Under the pieces are notes generated by a model that was not told where the DNA came from, ran no database searches, and saw nothing but the letters and a program-made list of their open reading frames with translations. This document shows positions 2,032 through 17,981 of a DNA stretch of 25,391 nucleotides, in pieces. How positions within the stretch are numbered: the first letter of the stretch is position 1; every line of letters starts with the position of its first letter. The DNA is from a virus, in the IMG/VR virus record IMGVR_UViG_3300050016_000038, positions 1 through 25,391 of that record; one strand, given 5' to 3'. A program made the translations under genes and the position numbers.

Positions 2032-2058
2032 AGCCAACCGAACACACGACTTAACCCA

Positions 2059-2080
2059 CCCCGCCTCGCGCGGGGTTTTT
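2059..2080 (+). terminator. Intrinsic terminator between protease and capsid gene
   Basis: A perfect 6-bp stem CCCCGC/GCGGGG (2059-2064 and 2070-2075) with a 5-nt loop is followed at once by five T residues. It sits 28 nt after the protease stop and before the capsid leader. A terminator here should lower read-through from the protease, or mark the end of a processed transcript, so that the capsid message is made or dosed separately. Confidence 0.75.
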
Positions 2081-2091
2081 GCTGCCCGTCA

Positions 2092-2151
2092 GCCGCCTGG
2101 GCACCGGCACCGCAGCGTCGGACGACGCCGCATCCCACGATGGAGCCTCTC
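2092..2151 (+). promoter_or_regulatory. Two-hairpin leader, copy A (capsid gene)
   Basis: The structured 5' leader of the capsid gene. Hairpin P1 has a GCCG/CGGC stem (2092-2095, 2105-2108) around the 9-nt loop CCTGGGCAC. After the linker ACC comes hairpin P2: an outer GC/GC pair, an A/C mismatch, then GCGTCG/CGACGC (2115-2120, 2123-2128). The innermost pair probably opens to give a GCGTC stem with a tetraloop. A GGAG ribosome site follows, 6-7 nt before ATG 2152. Related leaders precede the genes at 3607 and 9377, with base changes that keep the stems paired. It is probably an RNA element controlling translation or stability of abundant virion messages; a DNA-level role is not excluded. Confidence 0.65.
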
Positions 2152-3516
2152 ATGGCGAAACTGGCAGACCTCCTCGCCGAGCGAGGGGCTATTTCTGACG
2201 AAATGAAGGCGCTTCCGGAGAGCGATGACTTCACACAAAAGAAGTTCGACGCTCTTGAAACGCGGTTTAAGGCCGTCAACGACAACATCCGCGCTGTCGA
2301 GCGGTCCCGCGAGGTTCAGGCCCAGCTTGCCCAAGCGAGTGACGGCAGCGATGTGCGCGGAGCGGAGAAGCTCGCCTCCCCGGTTCCGCTGCCGGCTCGC
2401 GATCAGCGCCGCGGCTGGGATGCGGACGACTACCTGAGCTTTGCCCGGCAGCGCACCGGTTTCCGGCCACAGCCCGACAAGCATTTCAAGACTCTCGGCG
2501 AGCAGCTGCTGGCGGTCGCGAAATACTACCTGCCCGAACACCGGCACATGGATGCCCGGCTCGTGCGCGCTCCGACAGGCGGAAGCGAGATGGACCCGTC
2601 GACCGGCGGCTTCCTGGTGCAGACCGACTTCTCGACCGCGATCTTCCAGCGCGCCTATGACCTCGGCGAAATCCTCTCCCGGGTGCAGAAGCTGACAATC
2701 TCGTCCAACGCCAATGGAATCAAGATCCCTGGCGTCGACGAGACCAGCCGCGCAACCGGTTCCCGCTGGGGTGGCGTTCAGTCCTACTGGGTTGCGGAGG
2801 GCACGAGCGTCACGGCAAGCAAGCCGAAGTTCCGCCTGATCGAGCTCGACCTCAAGAAGATGATGTCGGTGATGTACGTCACCGACGAGCTTCTGGCCGA
2901 CGCCTCGATCCTCAGCTCGATCGCCACGCAAGCGTTCTCGGAAGAAATCGTCTTCATGACCGAGGACGCGATCTGGGAAGGCACCGGCGCCGGCATGCCG
3001 CTGGGCATCCTCTTGGCCAACGCCACGGTATCGGTCGCCAAGGAAACCGGCCAGGCCTCCGCGACCCTGACGTACACCAACATTCTGGCGATGTGGTCCC
3101 GGATGTGGGCGCGTTCGCGGCAGAATGCCGTCTGGTTCATCAACCAGGACGTCGAGCCGCAGCTCTATTCGCTCAGCCAGGTCATCGGCGTGTCCGGCGT
3201 CCCGGTGTACCTGCCGGCAAACGGCATCTCGGGGGCGGCTTACGGCACCCTCTTCGGCCGGCCGGTCATTCCCATAGAGTACGGATCGACCCTCGGCACG
3301 GCCGGCGACATCGTTCTCGCGGACATGAGTCAGTATGTGCTGGCCGACAAAGGCGGCGTCGACTCGCAGTCAAGCATGCACGTGGCGTTTCTGACCGATG
3401 AGATGGTGTTCCGCATCACCTATCGGGTCGACGGGCAGCCTCTGTGGAACAGCGCGCTGACGCCGTTCAAGGGCAGCAGCACCAAGTCGCCGTTCATTAC
3501 TTTGGCGGCACGCTAA
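2152..3516 (+). CDS. HK97-fold major capsid protein with N-terminal delta domain
   Basis: The main head shell protein, 454 residues from ATG 2152. An in-frame ATG at 2140 exists, but aligning its leader with those of the genes at 3607 and 9377 places GGAG as the ribosome site and 2152 as the start. Residues 1 to about 75 are charged and predicted coiled coil (the ADLLAERGAISDEMKAL region), typical of the scaffolding delta domain that the protease removes. The capsid core begins around residue 149 with the family-typical DPSTGGFLVQTDFS. The N-arm, E-loop, P-domain and A-domain order fits HK97-like proteins, and the C-terminus ends SPFITLAAR. The gene lies directly after the prohead protease, as in most HK97-type phages, and has its own terminator-flanked leader, which suggests separate high expression. 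Confidence 0.93.
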   Translation: MAKLADLLAERGAISDEMKALPESDDFTQKKFDALETRFKAVNDNIRAVERSREVQAQLAQASDGSDVRGAEKLASPVPLPARDQRRGWDADDYLSFARQRTGFRPQPDKHFKTLGEQLLAVAKYYLPEHRHMDARLVRAPTGGSEMDPSTGGFLVQTDFSTAIFQRAYDLGEILSRVQKLTISSNANGIKIPGVDETSRATGSRWGGVQSYWVAEGTSVTASKPKFRLIELDLKKMMSVMYVTDELLADASILSSIATQAFSEEIVFMTEDAIWEGTGAGMPLGILLANATVSVAKETGQASATLTYTNILAMWSRMWARSRQNAVWFINQDVEPQLYSLSQVIGVSGVPVYLPANGISGAAYGTLFGRPVIPIEYGSTLGTAGDIVLADMSQYVLADKGGVDSQSSMHVAFLTDEMVFRITYRVDGQPLWNSALTPFKGSSTKSPFITLAAR

Positions 3517-3533
3517 CTCCTCGTGAATTACTC

Positions 3534-3606
3534 GGGGTTGCTGGTGTAGCCCCGGCATCCCGCAGCGTCGTGAGGCGCCGCATTCCCTAGAAGGAGGCCA
3601 CTCACC
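3534..3606 (+). promoter_or_regulatory. Two-hairpin leader, copy B (gene at 3607)
   Basis: The same kind of leader as the capsid gene. P2 is present as an outer GC/GC pair, an A/C mismatch, then GCGTC (3565-3569), loop GTGA, and GGCGC (3574-3578). The stem holds through one T-G wobble although its sequence differs from copy A. Upstream lies a different hairpin, GGGGTT/AGCCCC (3534-3539, 3548-3553) with one wobble, in place of copy A's P1. A strong AAGGAGG site follows P2 and precedes ATG 3607. Confidence 0.6.
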
Positions 3607-4092
3607 ATGGCTCGACAGTACAGTTTGCCACAGCACCAAAAGATCGTGCAGATGCTGCCCCCGCAGACGACGAACGCGGCGGTCAGTTCTCAGGTCATCA
3701 GCCTGAAGAACGCCCACAAATGCTGGGTGGTCTTCGACTTCCTCAACGCTGTTGGCTTTGCGTCGGTCCCGACCCTCAACCAGGCGACCAGCATCGCCGC
3801 CGGCACCAACAAGGCCGGCCCGACAGTGCCGATCTGGGCGAACGAGGACACCGCGGCGACCGACACGCTGGTCAAGAAGGCCGACGCCGCGTCCTACACG
3901 ATGACGAACGACATCAAGCATAAGCAGGTCGTGTTCGAGATCGACCCGTCGCGGCTCGATGTCAACAACGGTTACGACTGCATCTATTTCACGATGGGCA
4001 CGTCGAGCCAGGCGACCAACTTCGTCTCGGCGACCGCGTACCTGATGCAGCGGTATCCGCAGGCGACACCGCCGAGCGCGATCCTGGACTAG
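3607..4092 (+). CDS. Probable head decoration or minor virion protein
   Basis: This 161-residue protein starts at ATG 3607 behind a strong AAGGAGG site. I do not recognise a named family. The sequence is beta-rich, with no signal peptide and no membrane segment, and it has alternating hydrophobic strands (HKCWVVFDFLNAVGFASV, KQVVFEIDPSRLDV, CIYFTMGTSS). Its place right after the capsid gene, and the fact that it shares the capsid's special leader, suggest a protein made in large amounts, such as a head decoration or cement protein. The 139-nt gap that follows holds a G-rich stretch, a possible GGCGG/CCGCC stem and a 9-bp direct repeat GACTTTTGC (4200-4208 and 4222-4230), but no clear terminator. 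The virion role is inferred from position and leader, not from homology. Confidence 0.75.
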   Translation: MARQYSLPQHQKIVQMLPPQTTNAAVSSQVISLKNAHKCWVVFDFLNAVGFASVPTLNQATSIAAGTNKAGPTVPIWANEDTAATDTLVKKADAASYTMTNDIKHKQVVFEIDPSRLDVNNGYDCIYFTMGTSSQATNFVSATAYLMQRYPQATPPSAILD

Positions 4093-5437: not shown

Positions 5438-6091
5438 GTGTGGTACAGCACGCTCCGGGTCACGAGCCAGCCAGCGGTTGAGCCTCTAACGCTGGATATC
5501 GTCAAGGCTCACGTCCGGATCGACAACGACATCGACGATACGACGCTGCTGCCGATCTATCTCGCGACCGCGCGAGCGAGTGCCGAATCCTATCTCGGCC
5601 GCGCGCTGATTACGCAGACGCTGGTTTCAACGATACGCCGGTTGGAAACGGATGGCCCGGGTTGGCATTGGGATTCCTGGGGGACCGGCTGGCCTTCGAT
5701 ATCCCGTACTGGCCGGCGCGCCATCGAACTGGCGAGAGCGCCCGTTCAATCGTTCACGTCGGTATCGATCCTCGACGACGCCGGAACATCAACTCCGGTC
5801 ACCGCGAATGGCGTTTGTGATATCGGGCTTGACCCGGCTCGGCTTTACCTTGACTGGTCAGCGGTCCGCGACCTTGTCCCGCCCATTGCGTGGCCGATCC
5901 AGCATCTCGCGATCACGTTCACAGCCGGGTACGGGGCGGACGGCAGCTTTGTCCCTCAGCCCATCCGGAACGCGATACTGCTGATGACCGCAGCACTATA
6001 CGAGCGCCGCGGCGACGAGGCCGAGACCGAAATGCCGAAGGCGGCCCGCTATCTGCTTGACCCCTACCGCATCCAGTTCTTCGGCGGCTGA
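5438..6091 (+). CDS. Head-tail connector, gp6-like (phiE125 gp8 family)
   Basis: This adaptor protein forms a ring under the portal and links head to tail. The best start is GTG 5438, giving 217 residues that begin VWYSTLRVTSQPAVEPLTL. An upstream in-frame ATG at 5381 would run through the previous gene and adds only low-complexity residues. The family pattern is clear: a 'P(L/V)TLDIVKAHVRID' opening helix, DDTTLLPIYLATARASAESYLGRAL, a central beta insertion, and the closing 'PQPIRNAILLMTAALYERRGD' helix that ends many gp6-like connectors. Its place between capsid genes and head-closure genes agrees. The start follows the previous stop by one base. Confidence 0.88.
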   Translation: MWYSTLRVTSQPAVEPLTLDIVKAHVRIDNDIDDTTLLPIYLATARASAESYLGRALITQTLVSTIRRLETDGPGWHWDSWGTGWPSISRTGRRAIELARAPVQSFTSVSILDDAGTSTPVTANGVCDIGLDPARLYLDWSAVRDLVPPIAWPIQHLAITFTAGYGADGSFVPQPIRNAILLMTAALYERRGDEAETEMPKAARYLLDPYRIQFFGG

Positions 6092-9288: not shown

Positions 9289-9307
9289 CCTCTAAACACC
9301 GCCCAAA

Positions 9308-9376
9308 TGCTGCCTGGGCAACAGCACCGCTAGCGTCGGATGACGCCGGCCATCCATCTCGAATGGAGCCCGTCAC
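9308..9376 (+). promoter_or_regulatory. Two-hairpin leader, copy C (tail sheath gene)
   Basis: The leader shared with the capsid gene. P1 has a TGCTG/CAGCA stem (9308-9312, 9322-9326) around the loop CCTGGGCAA; compared with copy A, one C-G pair has become T-A while the loop stays almost the same. After the linker CC comes P2: an outer GC/GC pair, an internal loop TA/CG, then GCGTC (9333-9337), loop GGAT, and GACGC (9342-9346). A GGAG ribosome site then precedes ATG 9377. The two-sided changes support an RNA structure. Confidence 0.65.
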
Positions 9377-11161
9377 ATGCCTGTCCCGTTTCAGCAGATC
9401 CCGGCCAATATCCGCGTACCTCTCTTCTATGCGGAGGTGGACCCGAGCCACGCCAACACCAACGAGCAGACCTATCGATCACTGCTGATCGGCCAGCTGC
9501 TGCCCAGCGGGACGTTGGCGTCGGTTGCCAACCTGACGACCAATGCAACCACGGCATCGGGCGCAGCCGTTTTGCATTTCGTGGCGGGACCGGTCGGGGT
9601 TGTCCCCGGCATGGTCGTCACCGACACGACCGCGCCCACGGTCATCCCGGCGAACACGACCATCCTCTCGGTCGACACGACCGCACATACCGCGACGATG
9701 TCCGCGAACGCAACCGGTGCGGGTGTCGGCGGGACCGATGCGCTGGTGTTCACCACGCCCTACACGCCAAACCCGATCCTCATCACCAGCAAGACGCAGT
9801 GCGACGGGTTGTGCGGCATCGGGTCGATGCTATCAAACATGGTCGCGGTTTATCGGGCGAACGACGCATTCGGCGAGATCCGCATCCTGCCCCTTCCCGA
9901 CGATCCCGCCGCTACAGCGGCAACGGGGACGATCACTTTCGGCGGTACCGCAACCGCGCAGGGCGTTCTCTCGCTCTACATCGACGGCACGCTGATCCCG
10001 ACGGTCATTACCACGTCAATGACGCCGACGCAGATGGCGACCGCCGTTGCGGCGAACATCAATCTCGCGAGCGACCTTGAAGTGACGGCGTTGGCGTCGG
10101 CAGCGGTTATTACCCTCACGGCGCGCAACAAGGGCGCGGTCGGGAACGATATCGATTTCCGCCTCAACTATCTCGGTTCTATGCAAGGCGAGGTTACGCC
10201 TGCTGGCGTGACCGTAGTGCTCTCGACCCTGAGCGGGGCGGTGTCCGGCGCGGCGACACTGACAGGGGGCGCAACCAACCCGTCGACGGCCCTCACGACG
10301 GCGCTGAACACGCTTCCCGAGGACAATTACGACTTTATCGCGCAACCCTACAGCGACACGACCTCGCTCGACGCATTCAAGACGTTCCTCAACGACATAA
10401 CGGGTCGCTGGGCGTGGTCGCGGATGCTCTATGGCCATGCGATGACGGCGAAGCGCGGCACTGTCGGCACCCTCACGACCGCGGGGCTGCTGCGCAACGA
10501 TCAGCACCATTCGATCATGGGCTTTTACGACAGCCCGACCGCGCCGCATGAATGGGCAGCGGCTATTGCCGGGGCCGTGGCAACGAGCACCCGCGCCACA
10601 ACCGGTCTCGGGCGCCCGATGCAGACGGTGCCGCTGGTCGGCGTCAAGGCTCCGCCGCGGGTGTCCCGGTTCATCCTCACCGACCGCAACACGCTTCTGT
10701 GGTCCGGCATCTCGACTTTCATGGTTGCGCAGGACGGCACTGTCGCGCTCGAAAACCTGATCACGACGTACCAGCTCAACGCCTTCGGCCAGCCCGACAA
10801 TTCCTATCTCGAAATCGAGACGCTGTACCTCCTGGCGTACATCCTGCGGTTCCTCAAGACGCGGGTGACGACCAAGTTCCCGCGCATGAAGCTCGCGAGC
10901 GATGGCACCCGCATCCCGGCAAACAGCGGCATCGTCACGCCATCGATCATCAAGGCGGACCAGATCGCGGCATTCTTCGATCTCGAAGCCCTCGGGGTTG
11001 TGCAGGACGATGTCGATTTCGTAGACGAGATCATCGTTGAGCGCGACTTGGTCAATCCAAACAGAGTAAATATTCTTTGGCCGGGTACGCTTTGCAACCA
11101 ACTGCGCATCTTTGCCTTGCTGGCACAGTTCCGCCTGATACCTGACTCGCTCGCCGCATAA
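9377..11161 (+). CDS. Contractile tail sheath protein (Mu gpL-like)
   Basis: This 594-residue sheath subunit contracts to drive the tube through the envelope. The N-terminus 'FQQIPANIRVPLFYAEVDPSHAN', 'YRSLLIGQ', 'NMVAVYRANDAFGEIRILPLPD', 'LPEDNYDFIAQPYSDTTSLDAF' and the C-terminal 'LRFLKTRVTTKFPRMKLASDGT' and 'PNRVNILWPGTLCNQLRIFALLAQFRL' parts match the Mu-type sheath family. Mu gpL is about 495 residues. The excess is largely explained by an insertion of about 80 residues (about 52-130) between SLLIGQ and ILITSKTQ that resembles the C-terminal extension of the tail terminator at 7659. The gene lies after DUF2635 and before the tube gene and has the special leader shared with the capsid gene. 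Confidence 0.93.
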   Translation: MPVPFQQIPANIRVPLFYAEVDPSHANTNEQTYRSLLIGQLLPSGTLASVANLTTNATTASGAAVLHFVAGPVGVVPGMVVTDTTAPTVIPANTTILSVDTTAHTATMSANATGAGVGGTDALVFTTPYTPNPILITSKTQCDGLCGIGSMLSNMVAVYRANDAFGEIRILPLPDDPAATAATGTITFGGTATAQGVLSLYIDGTLIPTVITTSMTPTQMATAVAANINLASDLEVTALASAAVITLTARNKGAVGNDIDFRLNYLGSMQGEVTPAGVTVVLSTLSGAVSGAATLTGGATNPSTALTTALNTLPEDNYDFIAQPYSDTTSLDAFKTFLNDITGRWAWSRMLYGHAMTAKRGTVGTLTTAGLLRNDQHHSIMGFYDSPTAPHEWAAAIAGAVATSTRATTGLGRPMQTVPLVGVKAPPRVSRFILTDRNTLLWSGISTFMVAQDGTVALENLITTYQLNAFGQPDNSYLEIETLYLLAYILRFLKTRVTTKFPRMKLASDGTRIPANSGIVTPSIIKADQIAAFFDLEALGVVQDDVDFVDEIIVERDLVNPNRVNILWPGTLCNQLRIFALLAQFRLIPDSLAA

Positions 11162-15607: not shown

Positions 15608-17981
15608 CCAAGGTTTCGCAGTTCGCATCGGGGTCATTGACGAGGTCACGGCGCGCGCCGCACAGATCAATCAAGCTCTGCTTGGCATCGGCAGGACGGC
15701 GCAAAAGACTGAATACGCCGCTGGTGCCGCACTCGATCCTGGAAAGATGCGCCGCGCCTACGATGAGATGCGGCTCAATGTCCGCGCGACCGGCCTCATC
15801 GTCGGGCAGACGTTTGAGCGTAGTCGCCGAGTGCTCGGTGAATTTGGTAAATCCGCGCAGGAGGCGGCTGATCATCTCGGGCGCCTGAGCCCGGCTCTGG
15901 GTGCGCTGGGCGCGATCGGTACGGTCGGCGGCGTCGCCACGTTGATGAACAACTTTACGACTTTCTCAACCAACGTGACGCACGCGAGCACGGGCATCGG
16001 GATCTCGACCAAGGAATTGCAAATCTGGAACGGTGCGGCCGAGCGTGCTGGAAATACTGCGGCCGAGATGCAGACGGCCCTCGGTGGAATAAATAAGGCT
16101 AGCCAGGAAGCGCGGCTTTACGGCGGCCCGGCATTGGGTGTCGCAAACCGCTTTGGCATCAATCTCAAGGGGAACCCGGCGGAGACGATCCGGGACATCG
16201 CCGATGCCGTCAAACGCCTGCACGAACAGGGTCAGTCCGCCGAGACGCAGGGGCAACTCCTCGACGTATTCGGCATACCTCGCGACATGCTGTCATGGCT
16301 GCAAAAGGGCCGTGCAGGCCTAGACGAGCTGACCGACGCGCAGCGCAAGTCGTCGATTGTCACTGACGAAAATATCGCCAAGGGCGAGAAGCTGGCTTCC
16401 GCTCTGGCCGGCTTGAAAACCTCGGCGACGAATACCGGCTATGCGTTCGCCGGTGATTTTGCGCCGGCGGTAAAGACGGCGGCCGATACGGTCGCGCACT
16501 GGCTCGATGTACTACAGAAAATGCCGGCTGCGATGACGGCGATCGAGATCGGCGGCGCGGCGCTTGGGGTGCTATTCGGGGTCACTCTTGTCGCGCAGCT
16601 GGGTAGGTTCGCCGCGAAAGCATCGGCGATCTGGGCGCTCCCGCTCTTCCGGTTTTTAACCAGTCCCCTCGGCTCAGGGCTGATCATTGGTCAGGGGATC
16701 GGCGGCGAAATCACCTCGCACCCTGAGAAATACCCGTATTTGCAGTCACCGTCATCGCCGCGCCAGCCTGGTGAGACGATGGGCCAATGGCTTGATCGTT
16801 CCGAAAAAGAACGAGCCGCTCAGCAAGCCTCACCGGATAAGGGTGGTTCGATCTGGCAGCGCTTAGGCCGCGCTCTGGGCATCACCGCGTCGGCTGCGCC
16901 GATGCCCGGATTTGCGGCTGCCGGCGTTACCGCGAACCGGGCACTCCCTGTAGAAGCCCGCGCTTTTCTTGACACGATCGCGGGGCCAGAGTCGGCGGGC
17001 AGTTACAACGCGCGCTGGCCCGGTTCGACATTCAGCGATTTCTCGAAACATCCCATGATTCGCGCGCCTGGTCCCGAAGGCTCAAGCGACGCTGCGGGCC
17101 GTTATGAGCTGCTGTCGTCGACTTGGCGAGCTAATCTGAAAGCGATGAATTTACCGTTAAATACCCCGTTCGACCCCGCGCACCAGGACCTGGTGGGTTG
17201 GAATAACGCGGTCGAGGCATATAAGAAAAGCACCGGCGGCGATTTGCTGGCTGATCTTAGGGCCGGGAAGGTGAACCAAGCATTCGCTGTTATGCGTTCA
17301 ACTCGTCAATGGGATAGTGCGAACCCAGGACGATATGGAGCGAATCTCCAGCGCGAGGGGGTGAATACCCCTACTGCTACCGCCGCCGCACCTACTGCTA
17401 CCGCCGCCCCCACTGCTACCGCCGTCGTTCCTGCCGGCGCCGCAACCACTGCTACCGCCGTCGTTCCTACTGCCGCCGTTCCTGCCGGTGCCTCTCCTGC
17501 CGGCTACGGCGCCCCTGGCCGGCGGGCCGATGGCAGCTTCACGGACGATAACGCCGGCGTTAGAGCGCGAGCGGCGGCGGCGGCGGCGGCGGCTCCGGCC
17601 GCCGCTCCGACAATATCGCAAGCCGGCCTACCATCTCTTCCGGCTAGCTATGTTTTCGGGGACCATCCTCACCCTGGTAAGTACTGGAGAACCGACCGAA
17701 ATACCGGCCATCGCTATCTGGCAGAAAATCCGGTCCCGCCAGACCCGAAGGCGCCCTGGCTACAGCCGGGATACGTTTTGCCGCCTCTGACGAGCGGTGA
17801 TGCGCCGCCCGCCAAGCTGTCTCAGGAAGCCCAGCCACAACAGGGTGCGGGCGACACCTCGCACGAGGTCACCGTCCACATCGCCAACGCGCCTCCCGGC
17901 ACACGCGCGAACATCGCGACGGCGAGCGGGCCCGCGAAGCTGAATTTGCGGACGAGCCACTCTATGGACACTCCTTGGTGA
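15597..17981 (+). CDS. Tape measure protein with internal lambda-R-like lysozyme domain
   Basis: This 794-residue protein is counted from ATG 15597; a GTG at 15585 would add four residues. The N-terminal part (about 1-300) is helical with tape-measure traits (VLGEFGKSAQEAADHLGRL, TGIGISTKELQIWNGAAERAG, AETIRDIADAVKRLHEQG). A hydrophobic stretch lies at about 310-340. Residues about 450-587 form a lysozyme-like domain like the lambda endolysin family (GH104): VEARAFLDTIAGPESAG with the likely catalytic Glu465, FSDFSKHP, and the diagnostic AAGRYELLSSTW, then 'FDPAHQDLVGWNNAVE'. A low-complexity Ala/Thr/Pro linker follows (about 592-672). The C-terminal part is Pro-rich. The protein should set tail length and open the cell wall on injection. 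It follows the frameshifted chaperone, as usual, but lies after the spike gene, unlike in Mu. Confidence 0.9.
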   Translation: MANSQGFAVRIGVIDEVTARAAQINQALLGIGRTAQKTEYAAGAALDPGKMRRAYDEMRLNVRATGLIVGQTFERSRRVLGEFGKSAQEAADHLGRLSPALGALGAIGTVGGVATLMNNFTTFSTNVTHASTGIGISTKELQIWNGAAERAGNTAAEMQTALGGINKASQEARLYGGPALGVANRFGINLKGNPAETIRDIADAVKRLHEQGQSAETQGQLLDVFGIPRDMLSWLQKGRAGLDELTDAQRKSSIVTDENIAKGEKLASALAGLKTSATNTGYAFAGDFAPAVKTAADTVAHWLDVLQKMPAAMTAIEIGGAALGVLFGVTLVAQLGRFAAKASAIWALPLFRFLTSPLGSGLIIGQGIGGEITSHPEKYPYLQSPSSPRQPGETMGQWLDRSEKERAAQQASPDKGGSIWQRLGRALGITASAAPMPGFAAAGVTANRALPVEARAFLDTIAGPESAGSYNARWPGSTFSDFSKHPMIRAPGPEGSSDAAGRYELLSSTWRANLKAMNLPLNTPFDPAHQDLVGWNNAVEAYKKSTGGDLLADLRAGKVNQAFAVMRSTRQWDSANPGRYGANLQREGVNTPTATAAAPTATAAPTATAVVPAGAATTATAVVPTAAVPAGASPAGYGAPGRRADGSFTDDNAGVRARAAAAAAAAPAAAPTISQAGLPSLPASYVFGDHPHPGKYWRTDRNTGHRYLAENPVPPDPKAPWLQPGYVLPPLTSGDAPPAKLSQEAQPQQGAGDTSHEVTVHIANAPPGTRANIATASGPAKLNLRTSHSMDTPW
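17373..17481 (+). repeat. Tandem in-frame repeat in the tape measure gene
   Basis: Copies of ACTGCTACCGCCG start at 17373, 17394, 17412, 17448 and (as ACTGCC) 17469. The spacings of 21, 18, 36 and 21 nt are all multiples of three, so the frame is kept. They encode repeats of the kind PTATA / VVPAGAA in the linker after the lysozyme domain. Such repeats easily gain or lose units and probably vary between relatives. Confidence 0.75.
17571..17593 (+). repeat. GCG trinucleotide run encoding poly-Ala
   Basis: Seven uninterrupted GCG units, plus a partial one, encode most of an alanine run within the tape measure linker. It is a likely site of length change by replication slippage; the frame is safe because the unit is three bases. 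Confidence 0.7.

Follow-up and report, generated by a model that had tools for sequence, protein, structure and literature searches.

A cis-acting structured leader RNA, with a conserved secondary structure and compensatory changes, lies on a fixed strand and at a fixed place before the start codons of head and tail genes in tailed phages of alphaproteobacteria. Judging from sequence comparison, it probably represents a new family of leader RNAs in which a pseudoknot at the ribosome-binding site (RBS) controls how virion genes are translated. The family layout comprises a hairpin P1 with a variable stem and a near-invariant loop CUUNGGCAA, usually a second hairpin P2 (typically with a GNRA-type loop and a 1x1 mismatch), a conserved linker of about UUCCCUNAGAU (typical form AUUCCCUNAGAU) and the RBS GGAGCC, which contains the Shine-Dalgarno sequence (SD) GGAG.

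The window, that is the whole stretch of DNA analyzed, is a viral record of 25,391 bases, in which PHROG and Pfam annotation identified a protease-capsid region and a contractile tail module with genes for head maturation protease, major capsid protein, sheath, tube, tape measure and baseplate. Three leaders, copies A, B and C, are located between genes inside operons, in the gaps 2032-2151, 3517-3606 and 9289-9376. An alignment of 60 diverse copies (A1) yielded a consensus with two covarying hairpins, from which the covariance model R1 was built; its training set included copies A and C, and copy B was left out. R1 detected only copies A, B and C in the 25.4-kb record, the next match scoring 9 bits, and a motif pattern based on P2 gave three plus strand matches in the window and none in the control. 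Both searches thus returned, as sole copies, the leaders that the first-pass annotation had placed here. The features of the window are:

2058-2080, plus strand: terminator-like hairpin with T run (z -2.1), ending 12 nt before P1 of copy A
2089-2153, plus strand: whole R1 match of copy A, before the capsid gene (55.4 bits, E 1e-12)
2092-2108, plus strand: hairpin P1 of copy A, stem GCCG 2092-2095 / CGGC 2105-2108, loop CCTGGGCAC 2096-2104
2112-2131, plus strand: hairpin P2 of copy A, outer GC/GC, mismatch A2114-C2129, stem GCGTC 2115-2119 / GACGC 2124-2128, loop GGAC
2142-2148, plus strand: SD of copy A, GGAG 2142-2145 followed by CCT (letters read directly)
2152-3516, plus strand: major capsid gene (phrog_10, 1.9e-43; Pfam Phage_capsid, 2.2e-45)
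3533-3554, plus strand: first hairpin of copy B in the MFE structure, 9-bp stem 3533-3541/3546-3554, loop UGGU 3542-3545
3545-3604, plus strand: whole R1 match of copy B, outside the training set (35.7 bits, E 1e-7)
3562-3581, plus strand: hairpin P2 of copy B, GCGTC/GGCGC with a U.G wobble, loop GTGA, followed by GGAGG 3593-3597
3607-4092, plus strand: gene for a 161-aa protein directly after the capsid gene (AlphaFold pLDDT 73.8, all-beta)
9306-9376, plus strand: whole R1 match of copy C, before the tail sheath gene (47.1 bits, E 2e-10)
9308-9326, plus strand: hairpin P1 of copy C, stem TGCTG 9308-9312 / CAGCA 9322-9326, loop CCTGGGCAA 9313-9321
9329-9350, plus strand: hairpin P2 of copy C, GC/GC, internal loop TA/CG, stem GCGTC 9333-9337 / GACGC 9342-9346, loop GGAT
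9365-9371, plus strand: SD of copy C, GGAG 9365-9368 followed by CCC (letters read directly)
9377-11161, plus strand: tail sheath gene (phrog_165, 1.1e-158)

The letters of the P1 stems in copies A and C, of the P2 stem with its wobble in copy B and of the GGAG downstream are as originally described. P1 had been reported for copies A and C only, which was read as copy B lacking a first hairpin; this reading did not hold, since copy B carries a different hairpin in the place of P1, with a sequence unlike P1. Its loop UGGU faces GCCA 3597-3600 after GGAG and could pair with it, so that the 9-bp hairpin may replace P1 functionally. Based on the relatives described below, the proposed pseudoknots would join loop GGGC 2099-2102 with GCCU 2145-2148 in copy A and loop GGGC 9316-9319 with GCCC 9368-9371 in copy C. 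The listed start of the capsid ORF, 2140, falls within the SD; the in-frame ATG at 2152 is the more likely start of this gene. The gene behind copy B had been called decoration-like. A leader does precede it, and its product is a candidate decoration protein; the 161-aa protein has no PHROG match, and its all-beta model of moderate confidence no named PDB match; its relatives also sit after capsid genes, this position being kept in L085-L092.

The secondary structure is supported by covariation. In A1, 95% of the pairs of P1, P2 and the proposed pseudoknot are standard pairs, 141 cells are changed on both sides (48 after shuffling), and the covariation score is 0.454, compared with 0.157 for shuffled and at most 0.14 for slid alignments. 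The P1 column pair 6-18 is CG in 36, GC in 19 and UA in five sequences and is broken in none of the 60; the P2 column pair 36-44 is UA in 33 and CG in 25. A further 61 distinct sequences outside the model, found in later scans with a loop and SD pattern and aligned to R1, contained 92% standard pairs, a percentage biased upward by the alignment to the model, and 120 two-sided cells, which are real letters, with a score of 0.383 versus 0.129 for shuffled alignments. Covariation in a wider alignment was what the first-pass annotation had pointed to as decisive; both P1 and P2 covary strongly, also in the set outside model building, and the P1 pairs covary among 121 distinct relatives. Several of the sets were picked by patterns fixing the loop or GGAGCC, which inflates the conservation of those letters, and the claims rest on the free positions; phylogenetic relatedness was handled by clustering only. 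Chance similarity in GC-rich intergenic DNA would fit the single-sequence folding energies of the three window copies, which are ordinary (z +0.5, -1.3 and -0.6), the structural support coming from covariation and not from single-sequence folding. Chance is refuted by this covariation together with R1 E-values down to 1e-16 in unrelated contigs, leaving it a negligible probability.

Conservation extends beyond pairing: the P1 loop has near-invariant bases that pairing does not explain, namely C8, U9, U10, A15 and A16, and among 121 P2 loops 100 have the form GNRA, with or without one additional base. AUUCCC, not a U run, comes after most P2 hairpins. Not every leader is complete: some with P1 lack P2, others have P2 but no canonical P1 (copy B, L008), and in some with P1 the SD is not followed by CC. 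At least two tandem P2-like hairpins lie between P1 and the SD in the capsid leaders L028, L029, L055, L057, L063, L069, L072 and L078. In L021 (~9935-10006), L023 (~5519-5586), L238 (128-190) and L322 (1462-1526) a terminator-like hairpin with a U run takes the place of P2 between P1 and the SD. A variant lineage (L260 7268-7338, L437 2363-2431, L514 2769-2839, L515 10070-10140) has the loop CUUGGGAAA, no GGAG and a downstream strand GACCCAA or GACGCAA.

The first-pass annotation had not described the relation between the P1 loop and the SD. In the relatives, loop bases NGGC face GCCN' at the 3' edge of the SD GGAG, which is almost always followed by CCN'. Since the first G of GCCN' is the last G of the SD, P1 and the SD would form an H-type pseudoknot with P2 within the third loop, and the geometry (4-5 bp, 3 nt, 4 bp, 2 nt and a long third loop holding P2) appears to fit such a fold. 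Because the GGC/GCC core never varies, covariation is possible at a single pair. In sequences selected with patterns that include GGAGCC this part was set in advance, and N' alone was free. With N=G, N' was C in 46 and U in 32 cases and never A or G; with N=A, it was U in 20, C in nine and G in one. With N=C, N' was G in six of 33, and with N=U pairing was weak, the fourth pair often being missing for both. Among about 80 columns, N' had the highest mutual information with N (z 6.9); N and N' formed standard pairs in 108 of 154 cases versus 88+-3.7 after shuffling, an excess that kept a p of about 0.003 after subsampling one copy per protein cluster. The energy of the native duplex between loop and SD was better than with swapped partners (z -4.3); for three other upstream or P1-flank control segments and the spacer/linker, native partners were no better than swapped ones. 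CC after GGAG was found in 13 of 21 capsid leaders with P1 and in 4 of 19 without it (p 0.010). One lineage has the loop UUGGGA and a pairable downstream CCCAA, and one relative there breaks the pairing. Taken together, three separate tests lend moderate support to a pairing of the P1 loop NGGC with GCCN', which would create a pseudoknot at the SD. Two other pairings were tried and rejected: GCC after the SD with the P1 3' strand or the spacer, as in some MFE folds (native versus swapped z +0.9 to +1.3), and the P1 loop with the CCC linker (no signal in the swap test).

A search with the capsid protein gave 80 related loci, and the regions upstream of these capsid genes showed P1 with loop CUUNGGCAA on differing stems, often together with P2. 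IMG/VR scans for the P1 loop plus TGGAGCC found many contigs with unrelated proteins downstream. R1 gave about 166 matches of at least 28 bits over the fetched loci, and more than 150 strong copies outside the window are present in viral contigs and alphaproteobacterial genomes, nearly all abutting an ORF start. As had been predicted, a covariance model thus finds further copies before capsid and sheath genes. In many contigs there are two copies, one ahead of the capsid gene and one ahead of the tail tube gene. The hosts, taken from a pattern scan of genome collections and R1, point to prophages of alphaproteobacteria (Mesorhizobium, Novosphingobium, Pararhodobacter, Acetobacteraceae, Bauldia, Rhodospirillales and MAGs); a few MAGs labelled outside this class could be misassigned. 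A prophage of Mesorhizobium sp. CA8 contains two elements, at G001:C1:175601 and 187915. In class-wide samples, drawn by organism and not by phage gene, R1 at E up to 1e-4 found matches in four of 289 alphaproteobacterial genomes, one of them the seed, and in none of 274 gammaproteobacterial genomes. Tail or head genes follow the strong matches; behind the two weakest (G291, G139) no gene was recognisable. Among 385 alphaproteobacterial genomes, a strict P1-SD pattern had a single match (L594 1517-1531), which lacks P2 and lies 24 nt before a major tail protein. For cultured phages blastn with the leaders gave nothing useful; of seven records searched with R1, that of Rhodobacter phage RcapNL alone contains a P1-SD core, which precedes a major tail gene similar to GTA orfg9.

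The elements could also be a DNA-level repeat (a protein site, part of a promoter or a recombination cassette) that mimics RNA hairpins. Copies within a contig are slightly more alike than copies from different contigs (0.77 versus 0.71), so cassettes may be copied. Against this reading, the strand is fixed and an ORF comes immediately after 113 of the 114 R1 matches scoring at least 60 bits, wobbles are about nine times as frequent as other mismatches within the inner pairs of P1, and the loop is coupled to the flank of the SD. Furthermore, no columns are conserved upstream beyond about -12 and no promoter stands at a fixed distance, which makes a DNA-level origin highly improbable.

The genes served belong mostly to unrelated families, which was also absent from the first description. 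The 231 distinct downstream proteins fall into 34 clusters with no alignment between clusters; 21 of the 31 clusters scanned, with about 192 of the 231 proteins, are head or tail families, and for the others no function was assigned. A Pfam scan of 122 downstream proteins gave Phage_capsid (46), Phage_tube_2 (13), Phage_tail_2 (10), cap_E (7), lambda-type tail tubes (7) and one each of GP7, Mu gpT, P22 coat and sheath. At least nine families of major head proteins are served (PHROGs 10/617, 1005, 283, 29, 212, 1357, 1328, 371 and 264), as well as major tail PHROGs 290, 1407/13196, 158 and 807, tube 185, sheath 165, scaffolds 3927 and 673 and one tail assembly chaperone. Two leader-bearing families have no known function, phrog_8234 (L357:2376-3167) and phrog_13692 (L573:3194-4729); from size and position, their members are likely tail tube and major capsid proteins, respectively. 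The motif alone can serve as an annotation handle that marks virion genes in alphaproteobacterial prophages, even without a recognised family.

The first-pass annotation had suggested high translation, stability or processing of abundant virion mRNAs. Of these roles translation is favoured, more precisely control of its initiation, since the elements end at the SD, the loop would hold the SD edge and most of the particle is made of the products of these genes. The P1 loop would grip the 3' edge of the SD, forming the pseudoknot at the RBS; the pseudoknot may govern ribosome access, and access in turn may set or gate the joint synthesis of the most abundant virion proteins, acting either by activation or by repression until a signal. 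As the downstream genes are unrelated, each gene's own product is a less likely partner than the ribosome, a host factor or a regulator shared among the phages. The usual account of phage late genes invokes promoters, terminators and simple RBS strength; one structured RNA, conserved including its loop, ahead of the principal head and tail genes in phages with unrelated virion proteins would imply a shared, probably host-linked control of virion protein dose. In a more far-reaching version, which we regard as unlikely, the leader is an exchangeable RNA switch common to unrelated alphaproteobacterial phages, in which the P1-SD pseudoknot docked with P2 senses a host factor or state and switches on the translation of capsid, tail tube, sheath and scaffold together. 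If so, phages of different families would share a virion-assembly regulon whose coordination takes place at the level of RNA.

Alternatively, the leader could be an operator at which an RNA-binding protein, encoded by phage or host, acts in trans; this protein would recognise the bulge and loop of P1 and the GNRA loop of P2 and switch virion translation on or off. The near-invariant loop bases and the prevalence of GNRA loops agree with this, as does the use of one element for unrelated genes; self-regulation by each downstream product is unlikely, the products being unrelated, and we consider such an operator possible, if doubtful. A CsrA-type GGA loop was rejected, because GGA occurs in a minority of P2 loops and GNRA dominates. 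For a T-box-like contact of loop GGC and UGGA with tRNA-Gly, which was considered as well and seems unlikely, no specifier or antiterminator architecture was seen.

Known stabilising 5' ends have stable hairpins close to the SD, and P1 and P2 resemble them in this respect. The two hairpins could accordingly mark or protect the 5' ends of virion mRNAs cut from a long late transcript, raising abundance and not the initiation rate. The location of the copies between genes within operons, before the most abundant products, would suit such a role, and a terminator-like hairpin was found at most 90 nt upstream in five of 90 elements versus about 0-1 of 80 elsewhere. Stabilisation or processing leaves unexplained the near-invariant loop, its coupling with the bases after the SD and the conserved linker, and is in our judgement rather unlikely to be the function. 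Transcription attenuation or antitermination, with P2 as a terminator-like hairpin controlled by P1, would find support in the terminator-like hairpin with T run seen before the SD in about six of 90 elements and in the hairpin 2058-2080 just before copy A, which is so close to P1 that no space for a promoter is left between them. Over the whole scan, terminator-like sites showed no excess over shuffles. Most elements lack the combination of a G+C-rich hairpin and a U run that defines an intrinsic terminator or attenuator, as most P2 hairpins are followed by AUUCCC, and the coupling of loop and SD would have no role, so attenuation is quite improbable. Antitermination of the Caulobacter GTA was rejected as an identity, since it rests on promoters and terminators, unlike the leader (PMC11150451).

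The first-pass annotation knew no named RNA family of this form, and at gathering threshold the 4227 families of Rfam 15 gave no match in the window and 15 relatives. Relaxed Rfam scans of two copies gave chance matches only, far below threshold, and no description of the leader was found in the literature, largely open-licence papers. Within Rfam 15 and the open-licence literature, the leader family is therefore undescribed.

In the preQ1-II, preQ1-III, SAM-II and SAM-V riboswitches the aptamer pseudoknot takes in the SD. As in the leader, a loop pairs at or beside the SD and invariant loop bases adjoin the pseudoknot; the phage leader differs in having no sequence or Rfam similarity to them, no metabolic gene and no known ligand. 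HK022 put and lambda nut boxB are likewise small phage hairpins, and the boxB loop is GNRA-like, as in P2; they act on transcription at the starts of early operons, whereas the leader stands at the SD of individual virion genes. The phage-associated Rfam families Mu-gpT-DE and GP20-a/b are structured RNAs which, like the leader, adjoin virion genes, but the leader matches no Rfam 15 family. The gene 32 leader of T4, T2 and RB69 is also a phage mRNA leader pseudoknot upstream of the start codon; it controls translation and is bound by gp32 (PMC3014915). There the gene's own product binds, the pseudoknot lies about 67 nt upstream and an A+U-rich RBS follows, whereas the pseudoknot proposed here would take in the final G of the SD, and the virion genes behind it are unrelated and number in the dozens. 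Autoregulation of the gene 32 type is unlikely, because the downstream products fall into more than 30 clusters. A pseudoknot is also found in the translational operator of rpsO (S15) (PMC3014915); rpsO and other ribosomal-protein leaders share this feature, but belong to host genes, are bound by the gene's product and have neither the P1 loop CUUNGGCAA nor such a P2. By analogy, the functionally closest systems would be pseudoknots at the RBS, for example that of the T4 gene 32 operator, and the SD-containing riboswitch pseudoknots.

Elsewhere in the window, the tape measure gene contains a long low-complexity stretch (17361-17600) of repeated Thr/Ala-rich units (CTACTGCTACCGCCGCC).
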